Source: Phytophthora colocasiae
Lineage: Eukaryota > Oomycota > Peronosporomycetes > Peronosporales > Peronosporaceae
Reading direction: 5' to 3'
NCBI GenBank assembly: GCA_018806915.1
Contig: JAGKQI010000028.1
Location: 496,001 to 560,000 of the forward strand
Length of the DNA stretch: 64,000 nucleotides
Of this stretch, positions 17,349 through 53,901 are shown piece after piece (positions within the stretch are counted from its first letter, which is position 1; each line of letters starts with the position of its first letter). The position numbers were made by a program, and so were the translations under genes. The notes below the pieces were generated by a model that saw only the letters and a program-made list of their open reading frames with translations, was not told the DNA's origin and did no database searches.

Positions 17349-17366
17349 GGTCCAAACTTCACAGAG

Positions 17367-32119: not shown

Positions 32120-32579
32120 TGTAACGGGGTTACACGTACAAGTGGTTGTACCACTTGTAACTCTAACAGTTAGGATAACTGTTAGAGGTTGGAAATGGGC
32201 CTCAGACCTTGGTGTGCTGTACACACCAATGGATACATGGGCGAACCACATTATTGGGTGGTTCGTGTGCATTTGTGCATATTATTGGTAGAAAGTAACG
32301 GATTTCTACCAATCACTGAGCAGAGTTTCTGCCAACCACACGTTGGCAGACCCTTTAGAAATAGATAACAAACAGTTTTAGGAGGTCCATAATTGGCTTA
32401 TGCCAAATTCAATAACAGTTCTCATTTTACGGTATTTTGCAGTTTAATTTAGTTATATTTGATTTAATTATTCTTATTTAAATAAGTATACTTAAATTAA
32501 GTCTATTCTAATTGCACGCTTCCTCATACACGTAAGCGCACGTGTACGCCATCTAATAGGTCTAGGTAGACCCATTACA
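32120..32579 (+). repeat. 5' LTR of Gypsy-1 copy A
   Basis: A 460-bp LTR with TG...CA ends (TGTAACGGGG ... CCCATTACA). It is built largely of successive perfect hairpins, for example TACAAGTGG/CCACTTGTA at 32137-32159 and CTCTAACAGTTA/TAACTGTTAGAG at 32161-32187. Confidence 0.95.
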
Positions 32580-32581
32580 CC

Positions 32582-32597
32582 TGGTAGCACTTTGTAG
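32582..32597 (+). other. Primer binding site of Gypsy-1 copy A
   Basis: Two bases after the LTR lies TGGTAGCACTTTGTAG. A PBS complementary to the CCA end of a tRNA begins TGG. The first 11 bases recur in the Gypsy-2 family. The tRNA was not identified. Confidence 0.65.
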
Positions 32598-32628
32598 TCC
32601 GTCCCACGACCGACTGCTGTTCGTTCGT

Positions 32629-33613
32629 ATGGAGTCATACGAACGCGGGGTAGAGAACTCCCAATGGATGAGGGATCCACTGGGACCTCACATGTCCGTG
32701 ACGCGCACGGACTGTGCCCACCTGTCAGATCCAGAGTGGGAAGCTCTCCAAAGACTTTCACAAGTCATTGGAGAGGCAGCGGTAGCGACGATGCTTCGTA
32801 CGCTATCGCCGACAGAGCAAACACGGTGTTGCTCTGGGGTACATTGTTAAGGAGCAACGAGATGTTGCTGCCTCGGTGGCTTCCCCGAAGCCACGCGTGG
32901 AGTCGTTGAAACTCCACGTGAGTACCTACACGGGGAAGGAGGACGAGACCCTCCTTCGTTGGCTTGTCGAACTTGACACAGCCGTTGCGGCTCGACGTAT
33001 CGTCGATCCGATGTCGAAGGTCGCGTTCGCCATGTCATGTCTTGGCGGACGTGCGAGGAGTTGGGCCTATGGGCGCCGACTCTCGGATCCTACGTGCTTT
33101 GGCACGTACGAGGTGTTCAAAGAGGAGCTCAAGCTTGCGTTTGAGCCCCCGAAGAACGAGTTCAGATCGAGAGCGGAGTTTCTCGATCTGCAGCAGGGCA
33201 AGGATGATGTTCACACCTTTGCCCAGCGTGCTCGATACTTGGTATCGAACATAGTGGCCAACCCGATCGACGAGGCGACCAAGGTTGTCACGTTCATGAA
33301 GGGACTAAGAGATGGTCCCGTCAAAACATATCTCTTCCGAGAGTATCCGAATACTCTCGAAGAGGCGATCAGCCTTGCGATGCAAGAGGAATTTAGCCGG
33401 CGTCAAGCTAAACTCCATGCGAACGCGCCGAAGCCGGCGCGTCCTGTTGCGAAGACGGGAGGTCCGGAACCTATGGACCTCTCGAGTGCTACGACTGCTG
33501 GTCAACAGCAGCGTAAGAACGTCAAGGTTCGATGTTACCTGTGTGGTAACATCGGTCACTATGCACGCAAGTGCACAGCGGGCGGGCGTTCAAAAAACGC
33601 CAAGGACCAGTAG
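32629..33613 (+). pseudogene. gag: Gypsy-1 gag, copy A (frameshifted)
   Basis: The capsid/nucleocapsid polyprotein begins at the ATG at 32629. Small indels relative to copy C cause a stop at about 32850. The main part is open from about 32876 to the TAG at 33611-33613. It ends with a CCHC zinc knuckle (CYLCGNIGHYARKC) for RNA packaging. The final codons overlap pol in a -1 frameshift site. Confidence 0.88.
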
Positions 33614-33633
33614 GCGCGGGGCGTCCTACTGGT
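33592..33633 (+). promoter_or_regulatory. -1 ribosomal frameshift signal between gag and pol, copy A
   Basis: The slippery heptamer A AAA AAC is at 33592-33598 in the gag phase (TCA AAA AAC). A 7-nt spacer is followed by a perfect 9-bp hairpin: ACCAGTAGG at 33606-33614, a 10-nt loop, and CCTACTGGT at 33625-33633. The gag stop TAG lies inside the 5' arm. Slipping by -1 joins gag to the pol frame. Confidence 0.85.
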
Positions 33634-34527
33634 GATGCAGTCTCGCGTGTCGAGCTTGGACACGCGACGATGAGGACTGCTGCCCCCAGCGAGAAGGTTT
33701 CTCGCTGTAAGCTGCAAGATGACAAGCCAAACCTTGTCATCCTGAACGTGATGTCGAAGAGAGTAAACTCTCTTCGTGCCCTAGTGGACTCGGGCGCGTC
33801 GAACAACTTTGTTCGACAGGGAAGTCTTCGAAGACTTGACTTCGAAGAGGCCGACACGCCTCGCAGCGTGTTGGAGGTGCGGTTGGCAACGGGTGCCACC
33901 GTGAGGACTGAGAAGCGCGTAGTCCGTGTGCGCTTCTCTTACAAACGAAGGACGTTTGTAGAAGATCTTATCGTCTTGGATCTAGACGATAAGTTCGACT
34001 TGGTATTAGGCATGCCGTGGCTTGCACGGCATGACCCGGTGATCAACTGGGAGAAGCGTACGCTCGTACGCTTCAACAACACATGCGCGACAGAGAGCGA
34101 TGGCCCTGTCAGTGCTGCACATGCACCGGCCGGTGCATGTGATTCCCCAGTTGAGGCAACAGCGTCCGCTGCTGCCTCCGATCGCCGCCGGAGACCGCCA
34201 GCGACTCAGGGAGTCGTTGGGAGAAAATGTGTGTCGACTCAGAAATCTGAGCCGAAGGGTCGCGGTCACATGAGTGATGGTCAGGTGAATGTGAATCACC
34301 TGACGCATAAACATCTGAATGATGTTTGTCACATGAGTGATGGTCAGGTGAATCGCATTCACCTGAGAGAAGGTAAAATACCGGTATTACCGGTATCCTT
34401 GGAGGTACTTCAAGCCCCCAAGGGTCGCGCCGACGACGTCGCGTCAACTCTGGGAGTTGACGAAATAAATAAAATTCGGGGAACCGAAAGGCGTGCGTCA
34501 GCTCTGGGAGCTGACGCCACTGGCGCG

Positions 34528-34671
34528 TCGCTGCTAGTTCTGGGAACTAGCGATCGTGCATCAACTCCGGGAGCTGATGATGCGTGTACAAGCGAACGTT
34601 CGCTGCTAGTTCCGGGAACTAGCGATCGTGCGTCAGCTCTGGGAGCTGACGATATGTGTACAAGCGAACAC
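34528..34671 (+). repeat. 72-bp tandem repeat of hairpins in the pol linker, copy A
   Basis: Two 72-bp units encode a repeated peptide (SLLV(L/P)GTSDRAS..GADD.CTSE). Each unit holds two palindromes, such as GCTAGTTC/GAACTAGC and TCAGCT/AGCTGA, around a GG-containing loop. Equivalent tracts occur in copies B (about 42160-42420) and C (about 51330-51610) with different unit arrangements. Confidence 0.85.
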
Positions 34672-36457
34672 TCGCTAGCGCAGGAAGCTAGCGAGAGCAC
34701 GTCGACTCCGGGAGTCGACGATGCGGTTGTTTCATCCGCTCCGGGGAGCGGATGGAGGCGCAGCGGTTCAGGGAACCGACTGCGCGGCAGGAGGTGCTGG
34801 CGGTTGCAAACGCCCAGCACCCGAACAACCTGCGTGCTCACGTGCAGCAGCGCTGCACGCGATGAGCGGCACTCAAGCCGGGCTTGATAGTGCGAGTCAG
34901 CGGAAGGAATCTGCTGACGATTGCGATAACGTCCCGTCCAAGGTGCGATGCCTTGGACGTGGAGCACCTGGAGCCGGGCTCCATGGTAGACCTTCGCGGC
35001 GCAAGCTCAGGGAGCTGCGCGAGTCTCAGTCCGGGACTGAGACGGGTGTATCTGCAGTGCAGACACCGAGTGTCGAGACGTTGAACGTCTTGACACGTAC
35101 TGGTACTGGGTTACAGTACCAGAGGATGCGGTTGGAGAATCCGCCGACGAGTGCGTCGGCGTTGACCGCACTTCCAACGATGAGTTGGAAGCGCTTCGCG
35201 CGAGACTTGTACGATGGACGCATCGAACAAATTTGCATTCTCTCGGATATCGAGAGAGTGGACCGCGAGGCCGAAGAGCTGAAGCAGCTCGTCGTCGATG
35301 GGATCACTGAGGGTGATGACTCTCTCAGTGCGAAGACTAAGAAGCAGCGCTTCGAAGAGCAGAGTTGGGACTCGTTGAGGTCGAGTCCCTACTACGAAGT
35401 TCTGCGGGAGTACAAGGATGTACTCCCGGACGAGATTCCTTCGGAGCTTCCGAAGGATAAGGGCGTACAGCACGAAGTACTGTGTTACACGGCAGTGGCC
35501 ACTGCCGCGTGAACAAGTGCAAGCGATCGACGACTTCTTTGAAAGTCGTCGTCTTGCAGGTCAAGTGCGGGAGTCAAAGTCCCCGCACAGTGCCCCAACG
35601 TTCTGTGCTAAGAAACCACAGGGCGGCTGGCGCATCGTTCATGCGTACAACAAGTTGAACGATGCGACGATACCGGCGCAGACACCGATACCGCGAAAAG
35701 ATGTTATCATCGATTCGATGGCCTTGAGCACTATCTTCAGTGCTCTAGATCTGCGTGATGGATTCTATCAAATCCTCATGCGTGAGAGGGACATCCCTCT
35801 CACAGCGGTAAGCACTCCAAGCGGTATGCTTTGGGAGTGGCTCGTCATGCCACAGGGGCTTAAGAACGCCCCTGCGACGTTCAATAGATGCGTGACACAT
35901 CTATTGCGCTCGGTGCGCGACTTCGCACCGAACTACTTCGACGACGTGTTCGTCCACAGCCGGGCTGTGAACGGGAAGACGGACATTGAGATGCACAAGG
36001 TGCATCTCCGGAAGCTGCTAGAGCTTATGAGGAAACATAAGCTCTATGCGAACCTGAAGAAGTGTATCTTCGGGGCGAGCGAGATACCCGTGCTGGGGTG
36101 TCTCGTGGGGAAAGACGGCGTGCGCTCTGACCCAGAGAAGGTCAGAGTGATCAATGAATGGCCCACGCCATCCAATGTGAGGAACTGAGGCAGTTCCTTG
36201 GGCTTGCCACGTACTTGTGCAAGTACGTGGACAACTATGCGGGCAAGATTCGCCCGTTGTCACAGCTTCTTAAGAAAGAAGCTGAGTGGATTTGGACGAC
36301 CGAGTGCGAGGAGGCATTCGGTGCAGTCAAGCAGGGCTTGACTGAAGCGCCGATCTTGGCCGTGGCGGACCAAGATCGTCCATTCCACGTAGTGTGCGAT
36401 GCATCCGACTTTGCAATCGGATGTGCATTGATGCAACACGATCACGAAGGGCGTGAT

Positions 36458-36918
36458 TGTAATGGGTCTACCTAGACCTATTAGATGGCGTACACGTGCG
36501 CTTACGTGTATGAGGAAGCGTGCAATTAGAATAGACTTAATTTAAGTATACTTATTTAAATAAGTATAATTAAATCAAATATAACTAAATTAATACTGCA
36601 AATACCGTAAAAATGAGAACTGTTATTGAATTTGGCATAAGCCAATTATGGACCTCCTAAAACTGTTTGTTATCTATTTCTAAAGGGTCTGCCAACGTGT
36701 GGTTGGCAGAAACTCTGCTCAGTGATTGGTAGAAATCCGTTACTTTCTACCAATAATATGCACAAATGCACACGAACCACCCAATAATGTGGTTCGCCCA
36801 TGTATCCTTTGGTGTGTACAGCACACTAAGGTCTGAGGCCCATTTCCAACCTCTAACAGTTATCCTAACTGTTAGAGTTACAAGTGGTACAACCACTTGT
36901 ACGTGTAACCCCGTTACA
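36458..36918 (-). repeat. 3' LTR of Gypsy-1 copy B
   Basis: A 461-bp LTR in reverse orientation (plus strand TGTAATGGG ... CCGTTACA). Private changes include AAGTATAAT and GTAAAAATG variants relative to the other LTRs. Confidence 0.95.
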
Positions 36919-36930
36919 CCATCCCCCCGT
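36919..36930 (-). other. Polypurine tract of Gypsy-1 copy B
   Basis: On the minus strand this reads ACGGGGGGATGG directly before the 3' LTR. It is the expected plus-strand DNA primer site and confirms the element's orientation. Confidence 0.8.
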
Positions 36931-37019
36931 TAAGATTCGACGTATCGGTCTCGATACGTCAATCAACAGAACTTGACAAGACCGTCAAGTTCCCAAGAGA
37001 AATCCGAGTTCATTTCGCA

Positions 37020-38294
37020 ATGGACTCGCCAACGCCCACGCCTCCGTCCGCTACTGCGGACGCGCAAGCCTCACCTGCTGCCTCTGCAGCAGGAACAACG
37101 ACCTCAGCAGTGCTCACTAGCACTGCTGCTTCCAGCGGTCCGACAGAGAGGCTCTCTGTCACCAAGTACCATGCTCTCCATAAGGAGAAGCATGAGAAGA
37201 AGAAGAAGTCTTCTTCTCTAGCAGAGATTAAGAATCCTGCTGTCCCTCTCAAAGAACTCTTTGGAGAGGACTACGAAGACATCCCCGACTACGACGAGGA
37301 TGTCGAGGAGGGGGAGGTTGATGTCAAGGCTCCCGCTCCCGTGTCTTCGTCCGAAGACACGTCAGACCCACCTGTGGGATCTCGACGACCTCGTGTTGAG
37401 GTCTCGGACGCTTCAAGTTCGAAGCGTCCGCGCAGTGATGATGAAGCGTCCCCCATGTCGAGGGCGCTCACTGCACCGCGCACTGATCCGCCAGTGCGCA
37501 CGCCATGGATGCCTACTGAGGCGGAGATCCATGACCGGTTCGGTGCTAGTTCACCACCGAACCCGATACTGTTGTACTCATGCAACAGTATCAACGACGA
37601 CGACGTCGCCGCTAAGGTTGTCTTTGAGTCTGAGACTCAAAGACGCGACTACTATATCGGGCTCTTCCACGAGCTCCGATACTATGCAGCGAAGAAGACT
37701 TCGCGCAAGAGCAAAGTGCCAGAGTGGCAGGCACTTTGTCAGTCGTGGAACGCCTTTGTTGATAACTTCAACAAAGACCCGAAGGCATATCGCGATCGCG
37801 TTGCTGCGGCTCGCGATCGCTACTACACTTACACTACACGTGGTAAGTGTGAACGCCTCCATGATCAGTCCATGGAAGCGGGGATCCCATGTGCCGTTCC
37901 CTTTGGCACACCCTGTCCGTGTTGCCCATCCTTGGCAACACGCCTTACCGAAAGTGATCTCCTGGGGTACACGGTCGTCCGTGTACCCGATCACATCAAG
38001 GAGCTCCGTGGTCGTATTGTGCCACGCGAAGCTCCGAGTGCTGTGGCTGACCGCAGCACTCCTCGTGCAGGGTTTAACCCTGCAAGTTATGGTGGGCTTC
38101 GTACGCCCTCACCATTTCCGGAACGTCCTCCATCAGGACGTTCCGCGGCTCCCATGTATCTCGATGGGGAGGAAATCCTCTCCAACGAATACGAAAACGA
38201 ACCCCTTGAGAGTTCGTTCTCTTATGAGCCACAATCCGCTCAACAATCCAGCGGATCGCTCCACGCGCGTCGCGCAACGGCGGCGGAGGGGTGA
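37020..38294 (+). CDS. Antisense ORF of Gypsy-1 copy B, unknown function
   Basis: An intact 424-codon ORF on the strand opposite to pol. It begins about 100 bp inside the 3' LTR, and its last 220 bp overlap the end of the pol chromodomain region. The N-terminal 150 residues are Ser/Thr/Pro-rich, then Lys-rich (KHEKKKK) and acidic (DYDEDVEEGEVD), suggesting a nuclear protein. The centre (about 175-310) looks folded: rich in Tyr, Trp and charged residues, with a Cys-rich end (CPCC). The C-terminus is Pro/Ser-rich. A homologous, frameshifted copy sits in the same place in copy A. I recognise no family. Antisense ORFs at this location are known in some plant Gypsy lineages, but no similarity is claimed. 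Confidence 0.6.
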   Translation: MDSPTPTPPSATADAQASPAASAAGTTTSAVLTSTAASSGPTERLSVTKYHALHKEKHEKKKKSSSLAEIKNPAVPLKELFGEDYEDIPDYDEDVEEGEVDVKAPAPVSSSEDTSDPPVGSRRPRVEVSDASSSKRPRSDDEASPMSRALTAPRTDPPVRTPWMPTEAEIHDRFGASSPPNPILLYSCNSINDDDVAAKVVFESETQRRDYYIGLFHELRYYAAKKTSRKSKVPEWQALCQSWNAFVDNFNKDPKAYRDRVAAARDRYYTYTTRGKCERLHDQSMEAGIPCAVPFGTPCPCCPSLATRLTESDLLGYTVVRVPDHIKELRGRIVPREAPSAVADRSTPRAGFNPASYGGLRTPSPFPERPPSGRSAAPMYLDGEEILSNEYENEPLESSFSYEPQSAQQSSGSLHARRATAAEG

Positions 38295-40197
38295 ACACTC
38301 CCTCCGCATGGTCAACGCTATGACCATGACGATCGTGCCCTGCACGATCGAGTTGCTGCGCTGGAGCAGACACAGAGCGCTGAGATAGCTGCTCTGAAGC
38401 AGGAGGTTCGTGTCCTCCGTGTTGAGGTCTGCGAGGCAGCTCAGACTGCCTCGAACCTCTCGTCCGGTCTTGGGACGAGAGTGAACTGATTGATCGACCG
38501 TGTCGACGGTCTCGAGAAGGCCTTCCAGGCCTCTCGCACTCCTCAGTCGGACTACCAACCCTAGGTAGTCCGTGCTGCACGTACGGTTTCAACCGCCCGA
38601 CGTAGAAGGTCGGGTGGAGCCTCATGCTGGACGGTATGTCCAGCCGGTACGCGTTACCATGCCGTTCAAGTACTTTGAACGGCCCATCGAATCTTGGAGC
38701 AAGCTTGCTTGCTCCAAAATCAGGCTTTACTGCATGTCTAGGTAGGTTTTGTGTAGCTAACAAAACTAATGAACCCTTTTCGAATTCATTTGTGTTGCCT
38801 CTACCAACAGTATCAGCGTTCAGCTTCTGTCGATCGACAGAAGCTGCGATAGCATCCTGGACAAACCGTATGACGGCTTGTCTTCGCTGGACAAAGTCTA
38901 GCGCACCCGAGCTGAATCCTTTCAGCTTGTCGCCCTTGTCAGCAGCAGGCCCTGCCTGCTCGCTATCATCTCTCATGTCTGTGCCCGGCACAGACATCGC
39001 GCGCTCGTTCCTGCTCGAACGAGACGTCGCACGCGTCACCGCAGCTGATAGTGTGCTGCTATCAGTTGCATTCTGTGGTTGTTCGGACGCAACCGTAGAT
39101 CCTCCCCCACTTAAGGAGGAAGCTACCCCGCCGAGCATGCTCGGCAATCGTGAATGCCTCATGGCGTTCACGTAGAACGGTGTATGCCCTGTCGAGGCAT
39201 GCACCGAGTTGTTGATGGCAAACTCTGCCATCGGCAAGCACTCGCTCCAATGCGGGAACGAGTGAGCGTAGCTCTTCAACGTGTCACCCAATACACGGTT
39301 GACACGTTCGGTCTGTCCGTCCGTCTGCGGATGATCCGCAGTCGACATTGATAACTGTGAACCAAGAAGTGTAAACACTTCTTGCCAGAACCGCGCTGTG
39401 AAGCGTGGATCACGGTCCGACACAATGTCGAGCGGCATGCCATGGTGTTTGAACACCATGTCAACAAACAGTCGCGCAGTCTGCGCGGCTGTAACAGTAG
39501 CCGGGACGGCAGCAAGATGAACCATCTTGCTGAATCTGTCCACAAAGACAACGATGCCCGTCCTCCGCTTGCTGTCAGGCGGAAGACCGAAGACAAAGTC
39601 CATGGACATGGACTGCCAACACTCCGACGGAGTCGGTAGTGATTGAAGAGGAGCCTGCGAGAACTGCGCAGGCTTCACGCGTTGACAAACCTCGCAAGCA
39701 CGTACGTACTTGCGCACCCACTTGTACTGGTGGTGCCAGTAGAAGTCACGCGTGAGAAGAGTGTATGTCTTCACGACCCGGATGCCCTGCCGTGGGTCAT
39801 CGTGATACTCGAACATGATCCTCAACCGGAGGTCATGATCATTCGGAACGACAATGCGATCCGCATTGTCGTCTACTGCACTGTACAACAGTAGGCCTTC
39901 GTGTACACGATAGCGGTGTACACGAGCTCGAAGATGAGGGGTTAGCTTCCGACGTGCCACGTCGGAAGGTGCTGCGAGGAACTCCAGCAGCCCCTTCGCA
40001 TCTGCATCCCTTGCATACGCGTTCTTCACGTCGTCAATCAACGTTGACGACGGCACACTTGTCCTCACGACGCCAACAGCGTTGGCGTCGACCGTCTCCG
40101 CATAGTCAGGTCGACGCGATAACGCGTCGGCCACTACATTGAGTCTTCCGGGGTTGTACTCCACCCGGAAGTTGTACTCGCGAAGAAGGACAACCAT
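38074..40197 (-). CDS. pol: Gypsy-1 pol C-terminal half, copy B (RNase H end, integrase, chromodomain)
   Basis: An open stretch of 707 codons. It begins in the RNase H tail (VVADALSRRPDY) and continues with the integrase HHCC zinc finger (C..C pair CEVC). The DDE core follows, with Asp in MDFVFGLP, Asp in VSDRDPRFT and Glu in QTDGQTERVNR. The GPF-type linker (LAPRFDGPFKVLERHGNAYRLDIPSSMRLHPTFYVGRLKPY is represented) leads to a C-terminal chromodomain (WIVERIVAHKR...RIRWRGF...TWEP) expected to target insertion to marked chromatin. The 3' end overlaps the antisense ORF. Confidence 0.9.
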   Translation of the reverse strand: MVVLLREYNFRVEYNPGRLNVVADALSRRPDYAETVDANAVGVVRTSVPSSTLIDDVKNAYARDADAKGLLEFLAAPSDVARRKLTPHLRARVHRYRVHEGLLLYSAVDDNADRIVVPNDHDLRLRIMFEYHDDPRQGIRVVKTYTLLTRDFYWHHQYKWVRKYVRACEVCQRVKPAQFSQAPLQSLPTPSECWQSMSMDFVFGLPPDSKRRTGIVVFVDRFSKMVHLAAVPATVTAAQTARLFVDMVFKHHGMPLDIVSDRDPRFTARFWQEVFTLLGSQLSMSTADHPQTDGQTERVNRVLGDTLKSYAHSFPHWSECLPMAEFAINNSVHASTGHTPFYVNAMRHSRLPSMLGGVASSLSGGGSTVASEQPQNATDSSTLSAAVTRATSRSSRNERAMSVPGTDMRDDSEQAGPAADKGDKLKGFSSGALDFVQRRQAVIRFVQDAIAASVDRQKLNADTVGRGNTNEFEKGSLVLLATQNLPRHAVKPDFGASKLAPRFDGPFKVLERHGNAYRLDIPSSMRLHPTFYVGRLKPYVQHGLPRVGSPTEECERPGRPSRDRRHGRSISSLSSQDRTRGSRQSELPRRPQHGGHEPPASEQLSQRSVSAPAQQLDRAGHDRHGHSVDHAEGVFTPPPPLRDARGAIRWIVERIVAHKRTNSQGVRFRIRWRGFPPHRDTWEPRNVLMEDVPEMVRAYEAHHNLQG

Positions 40198-43100
40198 CTC
40201 GCCATACGTTGCGAGATGTGCGGCGACTTAATCGCCGTACGCAATGATGCGTGGTCTGTATAGACCACGAACGGTCTACTCCCAAGCAGATACACTCGGA
40301 ACTTTGCGAGTGCATACCTTCATGGCAAGGGGCTCCTTGTCATGTACGGGATAATTACGCTCAGCTGGCTTCAGCTGACGCGATTGATAATAGACTACAC
40401 GATCACGCCCTTCGTGATCGTGTTGCATCAATGCACATCCGATTGCAAAGTCGGATGCATCGCACACTACGTGGAATGGACGATCTTGGTCCGCCACGGC
40501 CAAGATCGGCGCTTCAGTCAAGCCCTGCTTGACTGCACCGAATGCCTCCTCGCACTCGGTCGTCCAAATCCACTCAGCTTCTTTCTTAAGAAGCTGTGAC
40601 AACGGGCGAATCTTGCCTGCATAGTTGTCCACGTACTTGCACAAGTACGTGGCAAGCCCAAGGAACTGCCTCAGTTCCTCACATTGGATGGCGTGGGCCA
40701 TTCATTGATCACTCTGACCTTCTCTGGGTCAGGGCGCACGCCGTCTTTCCCCACGAGACACCCCAGCACGGGTATCTCGCTCGCCCCGAAGATACACTTC
40801 TTCAGGGAAGTTCGCATAGAGCTTATGATTCCTCATAAGCTCTAGCAGCTTCCGGAGATGCACCTTGTGCATCTCAATGTCCGTCTTCCCGTTCACAGCC
40901 CGGCTGTGGACGAACACGTCGTCGAAGTAGTTCGGTGCGAAGTCGCGCACCGAGCGCAATAGATGTGTCACGCATCTATTGAACGTCGCAGGGGCGTTCT
41001 TAAGCCCCTGTGGCATGACGAGCCACTCCCAAAGCATACCGCTTGGAGTGCTTACCGCTGTGAGGGATGTCCCTCTCACGCATGAGGATTTGATAGAATC
41101 CATCACGCAGATCTAGAGCACTGAAGATAGTGCTCAAGGCCATCGAATCGATGATAACATCTTTTCGCGGTATCGGTGTCTGCGCCGGTATCGTCGCATC
41201 GTTCAACTTGTTGTACGCATGAACGATGCGCCAGCCGCCCTGTGGTTTCTTAGCACAGAACGTTGGGGCACTGTGCGGGGACTTTGACTCCCGCACTTGA
41301 CCTGCAAGACGACGACTTTCAAAGAAGTCGTCGATCGCTTGCACTTGTTCACGCGGCAGTGGCCACTGCCGTGTAACCAGCACGTGCCCGGCACGAGATC
41401 AATCTCGTGCTGTGCCCTTATCCTTCGGAAGCTCCGAAGGAATCTCGTCCGGGAGTACATCCTTGTACTCCCGCAGAACTTCGTAGTAGGGACTCGACCT
41501 CAACGAGTCCCAACTCTGCTCTTCGAAGCGCTGCTTCTTAGTCTTCGCACTGAGAGAGTCATCACCCTCAGTGATCCCATCGACGACGAGCTGCTTCAGC
41601 TCTTCGGCCTCGCGGTCCACTCTCTCGATATCCGAGAGAATGCAAATTTGTTCGATGCGTCCATCGTACAAGTCTCGCGCGAAGCGCTTCCAACTCATCG
41701 TTGGAAGTGCGGTCAACGCCGACGCACTCGTCGGCGGATTCTCCAACCGCATCCTCTGGTACTGTAACCCAGTACCAGTACGTCAAGACGTTCAACGTCT
41801 CGACACTCGGTGTCTGCACTGCAGATACACCCGTCTCAGTCCCGGACTGAGACTCGCGCAGCTCCCTGAGCTTGCGCCGCGAAGGTCTACCATGGAGCCC
41901 GGCTCCAGGTGCTCCACGTCCAAGGCATCGCACCTTGGACGGGACGTTATCGCAATCGTCAGCGGATTCCTTCCGCTGACTCGCACTATCAAGCCCGGCT
42001 TGAGTGCCGCTCATCGCGTGCAGCGCTGCTGCACGTGAGCACGCAGGTTGTTCGGGTGCTGGGCGTTTGCAACCGCCAGCACCTCCTGCCGCGCAGTCGG
42101 TTCCCTGAACCGCTGCGCCTCCATCCGCTCCCGGAGCGGATGAAGCAACCGCATCGTCGACTCCCGGAGTCGACGTGCTCTCGCTAGCTTCCTGCGCTAG
42201 CGAGTGTTCGCTTGTACACGTATCATCCGTTCCCAGAGCGGATGTACGATCGCTAGTTCCCGGAACTAGCAGCGACTGTTCGCCTATACACGTCTCATCA
42301 GCTCCGGGAGCTGATGACCGATCGCTAGTTCCCGGAACTAGCAGCGAAGCGCCAGTGGCGTCAGCTCCCAGAGCTGACGCACGTCTTTCGGTTCCCCGAA
42401 TTTTATTTTCTTCGTCAACTCCCAGAGTTGACGCGACGTCGTCGGCGCGACCCTTGGGGGCTTGAAGTACCTCCAAGGATACCGGTAATACCGGTATTTT
42501 ACCTTCTCTCAGGTGAATGCGATTCACCTGACCATCACTCATGTGACAAACATCATTCAGATGTTTATGCGTCAGGTGATTCACATTCACCTGACCATCA
42601 CTCATGTGACCGCGACCCTTCGGCTCAGATTTCTGAGTCGACACACATTTTCTCCCAACGACTCCCTGAGTCGCTGGCGGTCGCCGGCGGCGATCGGAGG
42701 CAGCGGCGGACGCTGCTTCTTCAACTGGGGATCCACATGCACCGGCCGGTGCATGTGCAGCACTGACAGGGCCATCGCTCTCTGTCGCGCATGTGTTGTT
42801 GAAGCGTACGAGCGTACGCTTCTCCCAGTTGATCACCGGGTCATGCCGTGCAAGCCACGGCATGCCTAATACCAAGTCGAACTTATCGTCTAGATCCAAG
42901 ACGATAAGATCTTCTACAAACGTCCTTCGTTTGTAAGAGAAGCGCACACGGACTACGCGCTTCTCAGTCCTCACGGTGGCACCTGTTGCCAATCGCACTT
43001 CCAACACGCTGCGAGGCGTGTCGGCCTCTTCGAAGTCAAGTCTTCGAAGACTTCCCTGTCGAACAAAGTTGTTCGACGCGCCCGAGTCCACTAGGGCACG

Positions 43101-44756: not shown

Positions 44757-47086
44757 GTGATCGTGTAGTCTACTATCAATCGCGTCAGCTGAAGCCAGCT
44801 GAGCGTAACTACCCTGTACATGGCAAGGAGCTCCTTGCCATGAAGTATGCACTCGCAAAATTCCGAGTGTATCTACTTGGGAGTAGACCGTTCGTGGTCT
44901 ATACAGACCACGCATCATTGCGTACGGCGATTAAGTCGCCGCACATCTCGCAACGTATGGCGAGATGGTTGTCCTTCTTCGCGGAGTACAACTTCCGGGT
45001 GGAGTACAAACCCGGAAGACTCAATGTAGTGGCCGACGCGTTATCGCGTCGACCTGACTATGCGGAGACGGTCGACGCCAACGCTGTTGGCGTCGTGAGG
45101 ACAAGTGTGCCGTCGTCAACGTTGATTGACGACGTGAAGAACGCGTATGCAAGGGATGCAGATGCGAAGGGGCTGCTGGAGTTCCTCGCAGCACCTTCCG
45201 ACGTGGCACGTCGGAAGCTAACCCCTCATCTTCGAGCTCGTGTACACCGCTATCGTGTACACGAAGGCCTACTGTTGTACAGTGCAGTAGACGACAATGC
45301 GGATCGCATTGTCGTTCCGAATAATCATGACCTCCGGTTGAGGATCATGTTCGAGTATCACGATGCCCCCACGGCAGGGCATCCGGGTCGTGAGAAGACA
45401 TACACTCTTCTCACGCGTGACTTCTACTGGCACCACCAGTACAAGTGGGTGCGCAAGTACGTACGTGCTTGCGAGGTTTGTCAACGCGTGAAGCCTGCGC
45501 AGTTCTCGCAGGCTCCTCTTCAATCACTACCGACTCCGTCGGAGTGTTGGCAGTCCATGTCCATGGACTTTGTCTTCGGTCTTCCGCCTGACAGCAAGCG
45601 GAGGACGGGCATCGTTGTCTTTGTGGACAGATTCAGCAAGATGGTTCATCTTGCTGCCGTCCCGGTTACTGTTACAGCCGCGCAGACTGCGCGACTGTTT
45701 GTTGACATGGTGTTCAAACACCATGGCATGCCGCTCGACATTGTGTCGGACCGTGATCCACGCTTCACAGCGCGGTTCTGGCAAGAAGTGTTTACACTTC
45801 TTGGTTCACAGTTATCAATGTCGACTGCGGATCATCCGCAGACGGACGGACAGACCGAACGTGTCAACCGTGTATTGGGTGACACGTTGAAGAGCTACGC
45901 TCACTCGTTCCCGCATTGGAGCGAGTGCTTGCCGATGGCAGAGTTTGCCATCAACAACTCGGTGCATGCCTCGACAGGGCATACATCTGTTCTACGTGAA
46001 CGCCATGAGGCATTCACGATTGCCGAGCATGCTCGGCGGGGTAGCTTCCTCCTTAAGTGGGGGAGGATCTACGGTTGCGTCCGAACAACCGCAGAATGCA
46101 ACTGATAGCAGCACACTATCAGCTGCGGTGACGCGTGCGACGTCTCGTTCGAGCAGGAACGAGCGCGCGATGTCTGTGCCGGGCACAGACATGAGAGATG
46201 ATAGCGAGCAGGCAGGGCCTGCTGCTGACAAGGGCGACAAGCTGAAAGGATTCAGCTCGGGTGCGCTAGACTTTGTCCAGCGAAGACAAGCCGTCATACG
46301 GTTTGTCCAGGATGCTATCGCAGCTTCTGTCGATCGACAGAAGCTGAACGCTGATACTGTTGGTAGAGGCAACACAAATGAAATCGAAAAGGGTTCATTA
46401 GTTTTGTTAGCTACACAAAACCTACCTAGACATGCAGTGTCTGACTTTGGAGCAAGCAAGCTTGCTCCAAGATTCATTGGGCCGTTCAAAGTACTTGAAC
46501 GGCATGGTAACGCGTACCGGCTGGACATACCGTCCAGCATGAGGCTCCACCCGACCTTCTACGTCGGGCGGTTGAAGCCGTACGTGCATCACGGACTACC
46601 TAAGGTTGGTAGTCCAACTGAGGAGTGCGAGAGGCCTGGAAGGCCTTCTCGAGACCGTCGACACGGTCGATCAACCGGTTCACTCTCGTCCCAAGACCGA
46701 ACGAGAGGTTCGAGGCAGTCTGAGCTGCCTCGCAGACCTCAGCACGGATGACACGAACCTCCTGCTTCAGAGCAGCTATCTCAGCGCTCTGTGTCTGCTC
46801 CAGCGCAGCAACTCGATCGTGCGATCGTCATGGTCATAGCGTTGACCATGCGGAGGGAGTGTTCCCACCCCCTCCGCCGCCGTTGCGCGACGCGCGTGGA
46901 GCGATCCGCTGGATTGTGGAGCGGATCGTGGCTCATAAGAGAACGAACTCTCAAGGGGTTCGTTTTCGTATTCGTTGGAGAGGATTTCCTCCCCATCGAG
47001 ATACATGGGAGCCGCGGAACGTCCTGATGGAGGACGTTCCGGAAATGGTGAGGGCGTACGAAGCCCACCATAACTTGCAGGGTTAA
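44757..47086 (+). pseudogene. pol: Gypsy-1 pol C-terminal half, copy A (RNase H end, integrase, chromodomain)
   Basis: Resumes copy A after the nested element. RNase H tail, HHCC zinc finger and full DDE core are open from 44840 to about 45990. A frameshift there moves the linker to another frame, and further shifts precede the chromodomain (46748-47086, ending AHHNLQG). Five perfect 7-9-bp hairpins lie within 45635-45841 in the integrase core alone. Confidence 0.88.
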
Positions 47087-48141
47087 ACCCTGCACGAGGA
47101 GTGCTGCGGTCAGCCACAGCACTCGGAGCTTCGCGTGGCACAATACGACCACGGAGCTCCTTGATGTGATCGGGTACACGGACGACCGTGTACCCCAGGA
47201 GATCACTTTCGGTAAGGCGTGCTGCCGGGCGATGGGCAACACGGACAGGGTGTGCCAAAGGGAACGGCACATGGGATCCCCGCTTCCATGGACTGATCAT
47301 GGAGGCGTTCACACTTACCACGTGTAGTGTAAGTGTAGTAGCGATCGCGAGCCGCAGCAACGCGATCGCGATATGCCTTCGGGTCTTTGTTGAAGTTATC
47401 AACAAAGGCGTTCCACGACTGACAAAGTGCCTGCCACTCTGGCACTTTGCTCTTGCGCGAAGTCTTCTTCGCTGCATAGTATCGGAGCTCGTGGAAGAGC
47501 CCGATATAGTAGTCGCGTCTTTGAGTCTCGGACTCAAAGACAACCTTAGCGGCGACGTCGTCGTCGTTGATACTGTAGCATGTGTACAACAGTATCGGGT
47601 TCGGTGGTGAACTAGCACCGAACCGGTCATGGATCTCCGCCTCAGTAGGCATCCATGGCGTGCGCACTGGCGGATCAGTGCGCGGTGCAGTGAGCGCCCT
47701 CGACATGGGGGACGCTTCGTCATCACTGCGCGGACGCTTCGAGCTTGAAGCGTCCGAGACCTCAACACGAGGTCGTCGAGATCCCACGGGTGGGTCTGAC
47801 GTGTCTTCGGACGAAGACACGGGAGCGGGAGCTTTGACATCAACCTCCCCCTCCTCGACATCCTCGTCGTAGTCGAGGATGTCTTCATAGTCCTCTCCAA
47901 AGAGTTCTTTGAGAGGGACAGCAGGATTCTTAATCTCTGCTAGAGAAGAAGAAGAAGTCTTCTTCTCATGCTTCTTCTTATGGAGAGCATAATACTTGGT
48001 GACAGAGAGCCTCTCTGTCGGACCGCTGGAAGAAGTAGTGCTAGTGGGCACTGCTGAGGTTGTTGTTCCTGCTGCAGAGGCAGCAGGTGAGGCTTGCGCG
48101 TCCGCAGAAGCGGACGGAGACGTGAGCGTTGGCGAGTTCAT
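46776..48141 (-). pseudogene. Antisense ORF of Gypsy-1 copy A (frameshifted)
   Basis: Homolog of the copy B antisense ORF in the mirrored position, with ATG at 48141. It is open to about 47216, where one extra base shifts the frame (after PCCPS). The remainder is readable in the next frame, and the copy B stop is absent, so it continues to 46776. The N-terminal low-complexity part varies from copy B; the central block is nearly unchanged. This suggests constraint on the central domain, but only two copies are available. Confidence 0.6.
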
Positions 48142-48230
48142 TGCGAAATAAACTCGGATTTCTCTTGGGAATTTGACGGTCTTGTCAAGTTCTGTTGATT
48201 GACGTATCGAGACCGATACGTCGAATCTTA

Positions 48231-48242
48231 ACGGGGGGATGG
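48231..48242 (+). other. Polypurine tract of Gypsy-1 copy A
   Basis: ACGGGGGGATGG immediately before the 3' LTR, identical to that of copy B. Confidence 0.8.
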
Positions 48243-48702
48243 TGTAACGGGGTTACACGTACAAGTGGTTGTACCACTTGTAACTCTAACAGTTAGGATA
48301 ACTGTTAGAGGTTGGAAATGGGCCTCAGACCTTGGTGTGCTGTACACACCAATGGATACATGGGCGAACCACATTATTGGGTGGTTCGTGTGCATTTGTG
48401 CATATTATTGGTAGAAAGTAACGGATTTCTACCAATCACTGAGCAGAGTTTCTGCTAACCACACGTTGGCAGACCCTTTAGAAATAGATAACAAACAGTT
48501 TTAGGAGGTCCATAATTGGCTTATGCCAAATTCAATAACAGTTCTCATTTTACGGTATTTTGCAGTTTAATTTAGTTATATTTGATTTAATTATTCTTAT
48601 TTAAATAAGTATACTTAAATTAAGTCTATTCTAATTGCACGCTTCCTCATACACGTAAGCGCACGTGTACGCCATCTAATAGGTCTAGGTAGACCCATTA
48701 CA
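48243..48702 (+). repeat. 3' LTR of Gypsy-1 copy A
   Basis: 460 bp, identical to the 5' LTR of the same copy except for one base (GCTAACC versus GCCAACC). It is followed by the TGCTG target duplication and the resumed integrase of copy C. Confidence 0.95.
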
Positions 48703-51700
48703 TGCTGAATCGGTCCACAAAGACAACGATGCCCGTCCTCCGCTTGCTGTCAGGCGGAAGACCGAAGACAAAGTCCATGGACATGGACTGCCAACACTCC
48801 GACGGAGTCGGTAGTGATTGAAGAGGAGTCTGCGAGAACTGCGCAGGCTTCACGCGTTGACAAACCTCGCAAGCACGTACGTACTTGCGCACCCACTTGT
48901 ACTGGTGGTGCCAGTAGAAGTCACGCGTGAGAAGAGTGTATGTCTTCTCACGACCCGGATGCCCTGCCGTGGGGGCATCGTGATACTCGAACATGATCCT
49001 CAACCGGAGGTCATGATTATTCGGAACGACAATGCGATCCGCATTGTCGTCTACTGCACTGTACAACAGTAGGCCTTCGTGTACACGATAGCGGTGTACA
49101 CGAGCTCGAAGATGAGGGGTTAGCTTCCGACGTGCCACGTCGGAAGGTGCTGCGAGGAACTCCAGCAGCCCCTTCGCATCTGCATCCCTTGCATACGCGT
49201 TCTTCACGTCGTCAATCAACGTTGACGACGGCACACTTGTCCTCACGACGCCAACAGCGTTGGCGTCGACCGTCTCCGCATAGTCAGGTCGACGCGATAA
49301 CGCGTCGGCCACTACATTGAGTCTTCCGGGTTTGTACTCCACCCGGAAGTTGTACTCCGCGAAGAAGGACAACCATCTCGCCATACGTTGCGAGATGTGC
49401 GGCGACTTAATCGCCGTACGCAATGATGCGTGGTCTGTATAGACCACGAACGGTCTACTCCCAAGTAGATACACTCGGAACTTTGCGAGTGCATACTTCA
49501 TGGCAAGGAGCTCCTTGTCATGTACGGGATAATTACGCTCAGCTGGCTTCAGCTGACGCGATTGATAATAGACTACACGGTCACGCCCTTCGTGATCGTG
49601 TTGCATCAATGCACATCCGATTGCAAAGTCGGATGCATCGCACACTACGTGGAATGGACGATCTTGGTCCGCCACGGCCAAGATCGGCGCTTCAGTCAAG
49701 CCCTGCTTGACTGCACCGAATGCCTCCTCGCACTCGGTCGTCCAAATCCACTCAGCTTCTTTCTTAAGAAGCTGTGACAACGGACGAATCTTGCCCGCAT
49801 AGTTGTCCACGTACTTACACAAGTACGTGGCAAGCCCAAGGAACTGCCTCAGTTCCTCACATTGGATGGCGTGGGCCATTCATTGATCACTCTGACCTTC
49901 TCTGGGTCAGAGCGCACGCCGTCTTTCCCCACGAGACACCCCAGCACGGGTATATCGCTCGCCCCGAAGATACACTTCTTCAGGTTCGCATAGAGCTTAT
50001 GTTTCCTCATAAGCTCTAGCAGCTTCCGGAGATGCACCTTGTGCATCTCAATGTCCGTCTTCCCGTTCACAGCCCGGCTGTGGACGAACACGTCGTCGAA
50101 GTAGTTCGGTGCGAAGTCGCGCACCGAGCGCAATAGATGTGTCACGCATCTATTGAACGTCGCAGGGGCGTTCTTAAGCCCCTGTGGCATGACGAGCCAC
50201 TCCCAAAGCATACCGCTTGGAGTGCTTACCGCTGTGAGAGAGGGATGTCCTCTCACGCATGAGGATTTGATAGAATCCATCACGCAGATCTAGAGCACTG
50301 AAGAGAGTGCTCAAGGCCATCGAATCGATGATAACATCTTTTCGCGGTATCGGTGTCTGCGCCGGTATCGTCGCATCGTTCAACTTGTTGTACGCATGAA
50401 CGATGCGCCAGCCGCCCTGTGGTTTCTTAGCACAGAACGTTGGGGCACTGTGCGGGGACTTTGACTCCCGCACTTGACCTGCAAGACGACGACTTTCAAA
50501 GAAGTCGTCGATCGCTTGCACTTGTTCACGCGGCAGTGGCCACTGCCGTGTAACACAGTACTTCGTGCCCGGCACGAGATCAATCTCGTGCTGTACACCC
50601 TTATCCTTCGGAAGCTCCGAAGGAATCTCGTCCGGGAGTACATCCTTGTACTCCCGCAGAACTTCGTAGTAGGGACTCGACCTCAACGAGTCCCAACTCT
50701 GCTCTTCGAAGCGCTGCTTCTTAGTCTTCGCACTGAGAGAGTCATCACCCTCAGTGATCCCATCGACGACGAGCTGCTTCAGCTCTTCGGCTTCGCGATC
50801 CACTCTCTCGATATCCGAGATAATGCAAATTTGTTCGATGCGTCCATCGTACAAGTCTCGCGCGAAGCGCTTCCAACTCATCGTTGGAAGTGCGGTCAAC
50901 GCCGACGCACACGTCGGCGGATTCTTCAACCGCATCCTCTGGTACTGTAACCCAGTACCAGTACGTGTCAAGACGTTCAACGTCTCGACACTCGGTGTCT
51001 GCACTGCAGATACACCCGTCTCAGTCCCGGACTGAGACTCGCGCAGCTCCCTGAGCTTGCGCCGCGAAGGTCTACCATGGAGCCCGGCTCCAGGTGCTCC
51101 ACGTCCAAGGCATCGCACCTTGGACGGGACGTTATCGCAATCGTCAGCAGATTCCTTCCGCTGACTCGCACTATCAAGCCCGGCTTGAGTGCCGCTCATC
51201 GCGTGCAGCGCTGCTGCACGTGAGCACGCAGATTGTTCGGGTGCTGGGCGTTTGCAACCGCCAGCACCTCCTGCCGCGCAGTCGGTTCCCTGAACCGCTG
51301 CGCCTCCATCCGCTCCCGGAGCGGATGAAGCAACCGTCGACTCCCGGAGTCGACGTGCTCTCGCTAGCTTCCTGCGCTAGCGAGTGTTCGCTTGTACACA
51401 TATCGTCAGCTCCCAGAGCTGACGCACGATCGCTAGTTCCCGGAACTAGCAGCGAACGTTCGCTTGTACACGCATCATCAGCTCCCGGAGCTGATGCACG
51501 ATCGCTTGTTCCCAGAACTAGCAGCGACACGCCAGTGGCGTCAGCTCCCAGAGCTGACGCACGCCTTTCGGTTCCCCGAATTTTATTTATTTCGTCAACT
51601 CCCAGAGTTGACGCGACGTCGTCGGCGCGACCCTTGGGGGCTTGAAGTACCTCCAAGGATACCGGTAATACCGGTATTTTACCTTCTCTCAGGTGGATGC

Positions 51701-52472
51701 GATTCACCTGACCATCACTCATGTGACAAACATCATTCAGATGTTTATGCGTCAGGTGATTCACATTCACCTGACCATCACTCATGTGACCGCGACCCTT
51801 CGGCTCAGATTTCTGAGTCGACACACATTTTCTCCCAACGACTCCCTGAGTCGCTGGCGGTCGCCGGCGGCGATCGGAGGCAGCGGCGGACGCTGCTGCC
51901 TCAACTGGGGAATCACATGCACCGCCTGGTGCATGTGCAGCACTGACAGGGCCATCGCTCTCTGTCGCGCATGCGTTGTTGAAGCGTACGAGCGTACGCT
52001 TCTCCCAGTTGATCACCGGGTCATGCCGTGCAAGCCACGGCATGCCTAATACCAAGTCGAACTTATCGTCTAGATCCAAGACGATAAGATCTTCTACAAA
52101 CGTCCTTCGTTTGTAAGAGAAGCGCACACGGACTACGCGCTTCTCAGTCCTCACGGTGGCACCTGTTGCCAATCGCACTTCCAACACGCTGCGAGGCGTG
52201 TCGGCTTCTTCGAAGTCAAACCTTCGAAGACTTCCCTGTCGAACAAAGTTGTTCGACGCGCCCGAGTCCACTAGGGCACGAAGAGAGTTTACTCTCTTCG
52301 ACATCACGTTCAGGATGACAAGGTTTGGCTTGTCATCTTGCAGCTTACAGCGAGAAACCTTCTCGCTGGGGGCAGCAGTCCTCATCGTCGCGTGTCCAAG
52401 CTCGACACGCGAGACTGCATCACCAGTAGGACGCCCCGCGCCTACTGGTCCTTGGCGTTTTTTGAACGCCCG
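48703..52472 (-). pseudogene. pol: Gypsy-1 pol, copy C (protease to start of integrase)
   Basis: Protease (LVDSGAS) and linker are open to about 51340, with a frameshift there. RT is readable from about 51199, with a shift near 50235 (a small insertion before LTAVSTPSG). The same break at the RT/RNase H junction as in copies A and B lies near 49870. RNase H and the integrase zinc finger are open to the copy A insertion point (VFVDRFS). Confidence 0.86.
52422..52463 (-). promoter_or_regulatory. -1 ribosomal frameshift signal, copy C
   Basis: Heptamer A AAA AAC at 52457-52463 on the minus strand, 7-nt spacer, and the perfect 9-bp stem (arms 52441-52449 and 52422-52430). All elements are identical to the other two copies. 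Confidence 0.8.
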
Positions 52473-53392
52473 CCCGCTGTGCACTTGCGTGCATAGTGAC
52501 CGATGTTACCACACAGGTAACATCGAACCTTGACGTTCTTACGCTGCTGTTGACCAGCAGTCGTAGCACTCGAGAGGTCCATAGGTTCCGGACCTCCCGT
52601 CTTCGCAACAGGACGCGCCGGCTTCGGCGCGTTCGCATGGAGTTTAGCTTGACGCCGGCTAAATTCCTCTTGCATCGCAAGGCTGATCGCCTCTTCGAGA
52701 GTATTCGGATACTCTCGGAAGAGATATGTTTTGACGGGACCATCTCTTAGTCCCTTCATGAACGCGACGACCTTGGTCGCCTCGTCGATCTGGTTGGCCA
52801 CTATGTTCGATACCAAGTATCGAGCACGCTGGGTAAAGGTGTGAACATCATCCTTGCCCTGCTGCAGATCGAGAAACTCCGCTCTCGATCTGAACTCGTT
52901 CTTCGGGGGCTCAAACGCAAGCTTGAGCTCCTCTTTGAACACCTCGTACGTGCCAAAGCACGTAGGATCCGAGAGTCGGCGCCCATAGGCCCAACTCCTC
53001 GCACGTCCGCCAAGACATGACATGGCGAACGCGACCTTCGACATCGGATCAACAAGCCACTGAAGGAGGGTCTCGTCCTCCTTCCCCGCGTAGGTACTCA
53101 CGTGGAGTTTCAACGACTCCACGCGTGGCTTCGGGGAAGCCACCGAGGCAGCAACATCTCGTTGCTCCTTAACAATGTACCCCAGAGCAACACCGTGTTG
53201 CTCTGTCGGCGATAGCGTACGAAGCATCGTCGCTACCGCTGCCTCTCCAATGACTTGTGAAAGTCTTTGGAGAGCTTCCCACTCTGGATCTGACAGGTGG
53301 GCACAGTCCGTGCGCGTCACGGACATGTGAGGGGTCCCAGTGGATCCCTCATCCATTGGGGAGTTCTCTACCCCGCGTTCGTATGACTCCAT
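52442..53392 (-). CDS. gag: Gypsy-1 gag, copy C (open)
   Basis: A 316-residue Gag that is open from the ATG at 53392 to the TAG. The capsid-like region carries the retrotransposon-gag core (W.......L...L...F). The CCHC knuckle CYLCGNIGHYARKC is at residues 291-304. It has an in-frame deletion of about 36 bp relative to copies A and B (after LLQWLV), so it may still be impaired. It forms virus-like particles in the cell in related elements. Confidence 0.9.
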   Translation of the reverse strand: MESYERGVENSPMDEGSTGTPHMSVTRTDCAHLSDPEWEALQRLSQVIGEAAVATMLRTLSPTEQHGVALGYIVKEQRDVAASVASPKPRVESLKLHVSTYAGKEDETLLQWLVDPMSKVAFAMSCLGGRARSWAYGRRLSDPTCFGTYEVFKEELKLAFEPPKNEFRSRAEFLDLQQGKDDVHTFTQRARYLVSNIVANQIDEATKVVAFMKGLRDGPVKTYLFREYPNTLEEAISLAMQEEFSRRQAKLHANAPKPARPVAKTGGPEPMDLSSATTAGQQQRKNVKVRCYLCGNIGHYARKCTAGGRSKNAKDQ

Positions 53393-53441
53393 ACGAACGA
53401 ACAGCAGTCGGTCGTGGGACGGACTACAAAGTGCTACCAGG

Positions 53442-53901
53442 TGTAATGGGTCTACCTAGACCTATTAGATGGCGTACACGTGCGCTTACGTGTATGAGGA
53501 AGCGTGCAATTAGAATAGACTTAATTTAAGTATACTTATTTAAATAAGAATAATTAAATCAAATATAACTAAATTAAACTGCAAAATACCGTAAAATGAG
53601 AACTGTTATTGAATTTGGCATAAGCCAATTATGGACCTCCTAAAACTGTTTGTTATCTATTTCTAAAGGGTCTGCCAACGTGTGGTTGGCAGAAACTCTG
53701 CTCAGTGATTGGTAGAAATCCGTTACTTTCTACCAATAATATGCACAAATGCGCACGAACCACCCAATAATGTGGTTCGCCCATGTATCCTTTGGTGTGT
53801 ACAGCACACCAAGGTCTGAGGCCCATTTCCAACCTCTAACAGTTATCCTAACTGTTAGAGTTACAAGTGGTACAACCACTTGTACGTGTAACCCTGTTAC
53901 A
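53442..53901 (-). repeat. 5' LTR of Gypsy-1 copy C
   Basis: 460 bp in reverse orientation, ending CCTGTTACA at the outer edge. The PBS lies at about 53424-53439. Confidence 0.95.

Follow-up and report, generated by a model that had tools for sequence, protein, structure and literature searches.

Within a 64,000-nucleotide stretch of the Phytophthora colocasiae genome (assembly GCA_018806915.1, 92.5 Mb in 105 contigs; contig JAGKQI010000028.1, positions 496,001 to 560,000), hereafter the window, self-comparison resolves positions 31529-53901 into three nested copies of a single Ty3/Gypsy family, Gypsy-1, whose sequence is tiled with short perfect hairpins throughout, coding regions included. 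Copy C was invaded by copy A, and copy A in turn by copy B. Self-comparison together with Pfam places the 5' part of copy A, with its 5' long terminal repeat (LTR; 32120-32579), gag, protease (PR) and reverse transcriptase (RT), at 32120-36457 of the forward strand, and its 3' part, with RNase H, integrase and the 3' LTR (48243-48702), at 44757-48702. Copy B, which splits it, lies unbroken on the reverse strand (36458-44756; 8.3 kb, 8,299 nt; LTRs 44297-44756 and 36458-36918). Copy C, also on the reverse strand and split by copy A, consists of a 5' part at 48703-53901 (LTR 53442-53901, gag, PR, RNase H) and a truncated continuation to the left of copy A (31529-32119).

Judged by its parts, the element is an ordinary Ty3/Gypsy LTR retrotransposon, chromovirus-like in character. 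The LTRs are about 460 bp long, start with TGTAACGGGG, end with CCCATTACA and thus have the TG...CA ends of such elements, and the insertions are accompanied by 5-bp target duplications (TGCTG on both sides of copy A; GTGAT at copy B, inside copy A). The LTR pairs are 99.8% identical in copy A and 98.3% in copy B, and one LTR of copy C falls within the window. AACGGGGGGA directly precedes the 3' LTR. Pfam hits pooled over the three copies give gag with a zinc knuckle, aspartyl protease, RT, RNase H, integrase zinc finger and core, an SH3-like domain and a chromodomain, with gag, PR, RT, RNase H and integrase in this, the usual, order and the chromodomain at the integrase C-terminus (PF00385, E 1.1e-11, residues 650-701 of 707). 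In none of the three copies is gag-pol a single open frame; in copy B the integrase open reading frame (ORF; H2C2, rve, SH3-like, chromodomain) occupies 38074-40197 and an ORF covering protease and linker, in which PG-centred hairpin units stand in tandem, 41568-43304, both on the reverse strand. A 351-bp integrase probe finds at least 40 genomic places at 99-100% identity, two of them in the window. What sets Gypsy-1 apart from other chromodomain-bearing Ty3/Gypsy elements is the tiling of its 8.3 kb with about 150 perfect hairpins, together with a conserved antisense ORF located between pol and the 3' LTR. In copy B this ORF (37020-38294, forward strand) encodes 424 amino acids without a Pfam family, and at most other scored places about 550. 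It is stop-free at 67 of the 81 scored places in the host genome (508 candidates). At E<=1e-5 its protein matches 561 relatives, and of the best 120 all that carry a species name are from Phytophthora.

Defining a hairpin as a maximal perfect stem of at least 7 bp with a loop of 0-15 nt, we counted 153 in copy B (18.4/kb). The halves of copy A reach 18.9 and 18.8/kb, copy C reaches 18.9/kb, and its truncated tail 11.8/kb (7 hairpins in 591 nt). The left 31.5 kb of the window has 1.05/kb and the right flank 2.3/kb; as seen within the window, the excess stops at the element ends. Dinucleotide shuffles leave 0.65-1.02/kb (0.65-0.96 for the pieces of copies A, B and C), which makes the excess about twentyfold. 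Among 19 random 10-kb pieces of the genome, 17 span 0.4-1.9/kb with an average of 1.00/kb, and the other two, at 3.4/kb and 2.1/kb, contain a related Gypsy family and a satellite, respectively. With stems of at least 8 bp the comparison is 14.5/kb in copy B against 0.29 in the 17 pieces, or 0.39 in all 19. Four 2-kb pieces around other RT domains hold 0-1.5 hairpins/kb. The original prediction, made from the letters of this stretch, had claimed such tiling across the copies, and the effect proved stronger than first claimed; the nine hairpins it quoted, five in the integrase core (45635-45841) and four in the RT (35883-36044) of copy A on the forward strand, are all present with exactly complementary arms. 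The second hairpin-rich sequence of the random sample, at the end of L025, was rejected as a Gypsy-1 relative. There (L025 8000-10000) a unit of about 225 bp that itself contains hairpins is repeated in tandem, and the repeat recurs at many sites across the genome, with 224 matches reported.

The density is not a by-product of the encoded proteins. Ten element frames (nine sense, one antisense) contain 10-38 hairpins each against means of 0.9-3.1 in synonymous-codon shuffles, which leave 1-2 hairpins/kb, an 8-18-fold excess; in copy B the counts are 38 against 3.1 for the protease and linker ORF, 37 against 3.1 for the integrase ORF and 26 against 2.2 for the antisense ORF. Five frames that do not belong to Gypsy elements, one of which Pfam identifies as an AAA/bromodomain gene, have 2-4 hairpins against 1.9-3.5 after shuffling, within 1.2 sd, and a related Gypsy RT frame has 3 against 1.4. 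Neither a density as low as that of codon-preserving shuffles nor an equal density in host genes was found, and the claim that host genes lack the tiling holds for the five frames compared. The accompanying idea that synonymous sites were shaped to pair is right as far as it goes: synonymous choice is shaped and stems cross conserved codons, but amino acids covary too, as described below, and the codon phase of hairpins is near uniform overall (32/42/40).

Stem lengths in copy B peak at 9 bp (33 stems of 7 bp, 29 of 8, 47 of 9, 25 of 10, 14 of 11, 4 of 12 and 1 of 13), where chance would give a steep decay. Loops are mostly 0-9 nt, and 32% of bases lie inside stems. The longest perfect stem with a loop of up to 15 nt in copies A, B and C is 13 bp, short of the roughly 20 bp or more expected of a Dicer- or miRNA-like stem. 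A spacing of roughly 30-40 nt had also been proposed; when only stems of at least 7 bp are counted, the average is one per 54 nt. Distances of 25-45 nt between hairpin centres are over-represented and gaps of 10-24 nt are in excess (53 vs 39.6, P 0.007), and no regular spacing was detected, the coefficient of variation of the gaps being what random placement would give (P 0.56). Stem and loop together most often span 23 nt in copy B, and this span is less variable than in random combinations of stems and loops (P 0.0004). GC content declines as stems lengthen (rho -0.37, p 4e-5), and this keeps the predicted stability of 8-12-bp stems at mean values of -12 to -15 kcal/mol. When copy B was folded in 150-nt segments every 300 nt, z was below -2 in 28 of 28 segments on each strand, with means of -5.03 (sense) and -5.02 (antisense); two control stretches of the window gave -0.29 and 0.02.

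Folding of the sense RNA alone would tolerate G.U pairs. The interior stem mismatches of copy B comprise 13 G.U, 15 A.C and 22 others; the G.U/A.C counts are 24/27 just outside stems and 23/24 just inside, these tallies overlapping one another, and pairs broken among recent copies number 19 G.U, 29 A.C and 30 others. As G.U is no commoner than A.C in copy B, sense-RNA folding alone is probably not what was kept, and on balance the kept property looks like exact complementarity, the same on both strands. Pairing inside loops shorter than 3 nt cannot aid folding; in copy B complementarity nevertheless continues into such loops in 31 of 66 cases against 26% expected (p 0.009 for odd and 0.006 for even centres).

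The tiling is present in nine further copies or fragments in the genome. Six copies on other contigs (L002-L004, L006-L008) have 17.3-19.1 hairpins/kb, L032 (95.8% identical to copy B by blastn) has 17.6/kb and L033 (92-93%) 16.8/kb; in the aligned parts, 39 of 43 copy B hairpins in L032 and 37 of 42 in L033 have the same centre. L042 shows 13.6/kb over a stretch that extends past its alignable part. Its linker is only 74% alike to that of copy B by blastn, due to large indels, and its aligned stem pairs are unchanged in 147 of 154 cases, broken in 6, and double-changed yet still paired in 1.

Related Gypsy families (11 stretches at about 60-69% identity) carry 1.5-4.2 hairpins/kb against 0.6-1.0 after shuffling, a mild and consistent excess. 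They do not preserve the Gypsy-1 hairpins, as distinct double changes at Gypsy-1 stem pairs are paired in 22 of 63 cases, just as in controls (1420 of 4078), and single changes there are 167 G.U and 235 A.C. The related element L017 has few hairpins and no match to the antisense ORF, and at the place homologous to the RT hairpins the stems shown for copy B are absent. From this distribution we infer that the tiling arose on the Gypsy-1 branch. Within the window, pieces of a related Gypsy family (RT, integrase, chromodomain) lie at 54194-59804 in opposite orientations, with 2.5-2.7 hairpins/kb. Matches to the L017 family recur every 7.16-7.17 kb on one strand, a period equal to the LTR-to-LTR length of L017, which looks like tandem arrays sharing LTRs (G000:C19 873747-909579, six matches; C31 806179/813349; C44 921160/928330), and at G000:C38 122349-137825 eight RT-motif matches alternate in strand every 1.6-2.7 kb, like inverted tandem copies of another Gypsy family.

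P. citrophthora, P. oleae, P. cactorum, P. idaei, P. ramorum, P. cinnamomi, P. fragariaefolia and other Phytophthora species have homologous gag-pol and antisense proteins, at up to 83-84% amino acid identity over most of the query, the closest matches being from P. citrophthora; for the integrase, identity reaches 71% over the whole query and 83% over 56% of it. These relatives are known from proteins alone, and hairpins in them are inferred from the proteins, which share covarying SxPGxD units with Gypsy-1. No DNA of relatives from other species was found in the viral or prokaryote-genome collections, and the plasmid collection gave just three records at about 29-31% identity. P0071, a record labelled Aeromonas veronii, has a Phytophthora-like integrase 75% identical to that of Gypsy-1 over 55% of the query and is probably contamination of a bacterial assembly.

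The original prediction had proposed testing whether substitutions between copies in stem arms are compensatory, and the outcome depends on evolutionary distance. Over a 3.4-kb part, aligned as ten rows that represent nine copies (L005 is copy B and was excluded), 537 of 615 stem pairs are invariant, 72 of the 78 variable ones are only broken in some copy, and the remaining 6, apparent double changes, were rejected as misalignment where L004 leaves the family. Recent copies thus show decay rather than compensation.

Compensation appears among more diverged sequences. The linker between protease and RT consists of tandem units centred on Pro-Gly codons. We compared 20 windows of these paralogous units, four of 24 having been dropped (one with a shifted centre, three unlike such units); units were found by their core and centred on the best-pairing of five positions, and both the centring and the dropping favour pairing somewhat. 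The covariation score was 0.504 against 0.217 +/- 0.028 for shuffled and 0.05-0.21 for slid pairings, and 9 of 11 pairs had changed on both sides. In one unit copy B differs from copies A and C by whole arms that are paired in each, a difference that could also stem from exchange between units.

Covariation extends to the proteins of other species. In 240 relatives' proteins, mostly from Phytophthora, we counted 199 distinct contexts of the motif S-x-[PQLT]-G-y-[DE], with x-y states A-A (51), T-V (53), V-T (44) and a remainder that is mostly A-V (16); the first two bases of x and y are complementary in 152 of 191 contexts against 57 expected, the contexts not being independent. One such site is orthologous across species: residues 403 and 406 of the copy B integrase ORF (SVPGTD, in the C-terminal unit) are V-T here, as they are in several proteins of P. 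cactorum/idaei; P. ramorum and P. fragariaefolia have T-V, a P. cinnamomi protein and its near relative P0071 have A-A, and some proteins have unpaired states. A switch from V-T to T-V requires four base changes. Base pairing predicts this x-y rule, and we know of no protein-level reason for it. In a test of pairs at non-degenerate codon positions, with relatives split by identity to Gypsy-1, 53 of 120 distinct double changes were paired in a first pass over relatives of at least 60% identity (controls 1969 of 5845). In the closest relatives (at least 78%) 14 of 23 were paired against 313 of 932 (p 0.007), and broken pairs made up 6.6% of cells against 13.5% in controls; the lower identity bands gave no significant result (p 0.21, 0.051 and 0.12). 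Taken together, these comparisons indicate that at least some hairpins were kept while their bases changed.

The potential of a protein to encode hairpins (stem 9) was also scored from protein sequence alone. In Gypsy-1 the linker (27 vs 9.0 expected) and integrase (19 vs 9.7) stand out, and no excess was found in gag (4 vs 3.4), RT (3 vs 2.2), RNase H (5 vs 4.1) or four other frames (4-29 vs 8.2-25.6). Relatives' linkers reach 1.6-2.7 times the expected value (3.8 in one P. oleae protein) and their integrases 1.45-1.59, but the proteins compared from unrelated families, their integrases, already reach 1.36; as a sign of tiling in the relatives this potential is only suggestive.

Two explanations fit these observations: one arm may be copied from the other, or selection may favour hairpins on both strands. 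Nor are they mutually exclusive: switching might generate the perfect hairpins, of which selection would retain those of a certain size. We favour copying by template switching during reverse transcription, to which we give about an even chance. The growing strand would occasionally leave its template at a partly self-complementary spot, use itself or the sister strand as template over about 9 nt, and then go back to the original one. A near-palindrome would thereby be made perfect, and the second arm would be rewritten whenever the first mutates. Conversions harming the gag, pol or antisense ORF proteins would be purged by purifying selection, and over-stable stems, unable to reopen, would cap stem length and leave long stems richer in AT. 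Gypsy-1 would then differ from its relatives by an RT (or nucleocapsid) more prone to switching, any function that the hairpins have for it would be secondary, and the whole sequence would have been made palindromic piece by piece by the element's own replication. In favour of copying are the exact complementarity, the lack of a sense-RNA preference, the near-uniform codon phase, the complementarity inside loops, multi-base switches, the restriction to one family, and the difficulty of keeping about 150 hairpins by selection in a small element population. Perfect hairpins and multi-base compensatory change have been traced to template switching, a mechanism known in cells (Monttinen and Loytynoja 2022, PMC8794818). 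Gypsy-1 has the same signature, with perfect reverse-complement arms and multi-base co-change in paralogous units and other species' proteins. The published cases are scattered events in RNA genes made by DNA replication, whereas here a whole coding element is affected, presumably through its RT.

Several observations weigh against this reading, or at least against mutation pressure as the whole cause. In the compared parts of copies that differ by a few percent, no genuine compensatory pair was found, and direct block conversion of one arm was not seen among them either, the other families being too diverged to show it. The sole paired double change between L042 and copy B sits in the indel-rich linker, so no clear conversion was caught, and variants shared among copies (12 at 1075 stem sites, 39 at 2105 non-stem sites) give no clearer conversion signal. 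Copying polarity is absent: 5' arms contain 28.7% G, 27.1% C, 21.6% T and 22.6% A, lacking the 5' G-C / U-A bias proposed in PMC8794818, and relative to L017 both arms changed equally (70 vs 63 changes in 27 hairpins). LTRs are not denser in hairpins than the interior (14.1 vs 18.8/kb), and amino acids inside stems deviate hardly more than elsewhere, both unlike what pure mutation pressure predicts. Hairpins of gag, RT and RNase H seldom fall in one of the codon phases (8 of 47), and protein constraint therefore shaped hairpin placement there. Copies A (26 of 64) and C (14 of 41) show the loop-interior complementarity less strongly, and uniform span with near-constant stability also fits selection. 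Two protein-level tallies lean toward G.U: exceptions to the SxPGxD rule are of G.U type in 18 and of A.C type in 4 distinct contexts (occurrences: A-V 24 and V-A 4; T-A 2 and A-T 3), 23 of the 24 A-V occurrences being confined to two lineages, P. citrophthora and P. cactorum/idaei, and single breaks in the closest relatives lean slightly the same way (55 G.U vs 37 A.C; control 2289 vs 2066).

Selection for hairpins that form on both strands, the chief alternative, is a real possibility, if on the doubtful side. A perfect Watson-Crick hairpin folds in sense and antisense RNA alike, a hairpin with G.U pairs in only one of them; fast local folding would hinder annealing of sense to antisense RNA and hence the double-stranded RNA that feeds silencing, while stems under about 13 bp would be too short for Dicer. 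A variant would have the minus-strand cDNA as the folding molecule. The equal folding excess on the two strands fits this well, as do the relation of GC to stem length, the narrow span and the favoured 10-24-nt gaps, by which the hairpins look built to one specification. So do the roughly similar densities of LTR, coding and linker sequence, the small loss of amino acid identity in stems and the lack of copying polarity. The antisense ORF is conserved, and sense and antisense RNA are therefore probably both made; L017, without a match to this ORF, has few hairpins. Phytophthora small RNAs of 21 nt arise largely from inverted repeats and those of 25/26 nt from transposable elements (PMC3804510), which makes silencing a sensible place to look. 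Against such selection, holding about 150 hairpins near base-pair exactness would need strong selection in a family of perhaps a hundred copies, the complementarity inside loops under 3 nt is left unexplained, and antisense transcription is assumed. Moreover, hairpin-like structures in maize are reported to accompany more small RNAs (PMC10760457).

Selection on the structure of the sense genomic RNA alone, for packaging, stability or genome-scale ordered structure, is improbable. Some RNA viruses have such ordered structure, with a genome-wide folding excess over shuffled sequence. Gypsy-1 resembles them in that its sense RNA folds beyond shuffles throughout (28 of 28 segments), and the arm covariation and the G.U lean of the protein-level tallies agree with it. 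Its hairpins, however, are short, perfect and equal on both strands, with a mean z of about -5, and belong to a retroelement; the G.U tolerance expected of one-strand selection was not found in the DNA, and antisense fold energy equals sense. Structured genomic RNA, one of the three causes first suggested, is thus weakened in its plain sense-strand form; the other two, template-switch copying and an effect on silencing, stay plausible. Switching during host DNA replication or repair is still less likely: it would leave the same footprint, by a mechanism known in cells (PMC8794818), but the other frames of the window, the random pieces and the four pieces of other retroelements are at background, and sister families in the same nucleus, without the Gypsy-1 hairpins and at just 1.5-4.2/kb, speak against it. 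Chance, base composition, codon usage or assembly artefact is effectively refuted by the excess over both kinds of shuffle, the recurrence of the tiling on other contigs and the covariation in proteins from other species' assemblies.

With copying as the preferred reading, we would tentatively go one step further, to a proposal that falls a little short of an even chance: Gypsy-1 may be in a self-palindromising regime, in which its own RT keeps rewriting short near-palindromes until an 8-kb coding genome becomes a near-continuous series of strand-symmetric hairpins and distant amino acids are yoked by nucleotide complementarity, not protein function, a state that would persist across Phytophthora species. 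The Ty3/Gypsy element type and template switching as a maker of hairpins are known; a hairpin-tiled retrotransposon appears to be new. We found no report of one in a search of full-text literature judged by titles and abstract openings, with subscription papers mostly outside its reach, and a paper on oomycete retrotransposons (PMC5348765) contains none of the terms hairpin, palindrom-, antisense or inverted.

Elsewhere in the window, an inverted repeat with arms of 2.7 kb (5998-8694 and 12224-14926) that are 98% identical and about 3.5 kb apart has long open frames in each arm. Several diverged paralogous stretches, 72-84% identical and in both orientations, lie at 3747-18886 and are apparently a local gene family. 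At 60971-61969 an RVT_2 (Copia-type) RT fragment is flanked by 281-bp direct repeats (60493-60773 and 62003-62283), 98% alike and possibly LTRs.

If copying is the cause, Gypsy-1 would be an exceptionally dense natural record of RT template switching, and of a mutational process strong enough to write amino acid covariation into proteins; analyses that take covarying residues to be in structural contact would go wrong on sequences of this kind. If selection is the cause, the element's genome would be one made to fold on both strands, possibly to counter silencing. In both cases, whether mutation or selection gives rise to hairpins in retroelement genomes becomes directly testable, and a test on proteins alone, for dinucleotide complementarity between covarying residues, can reveal further cases.

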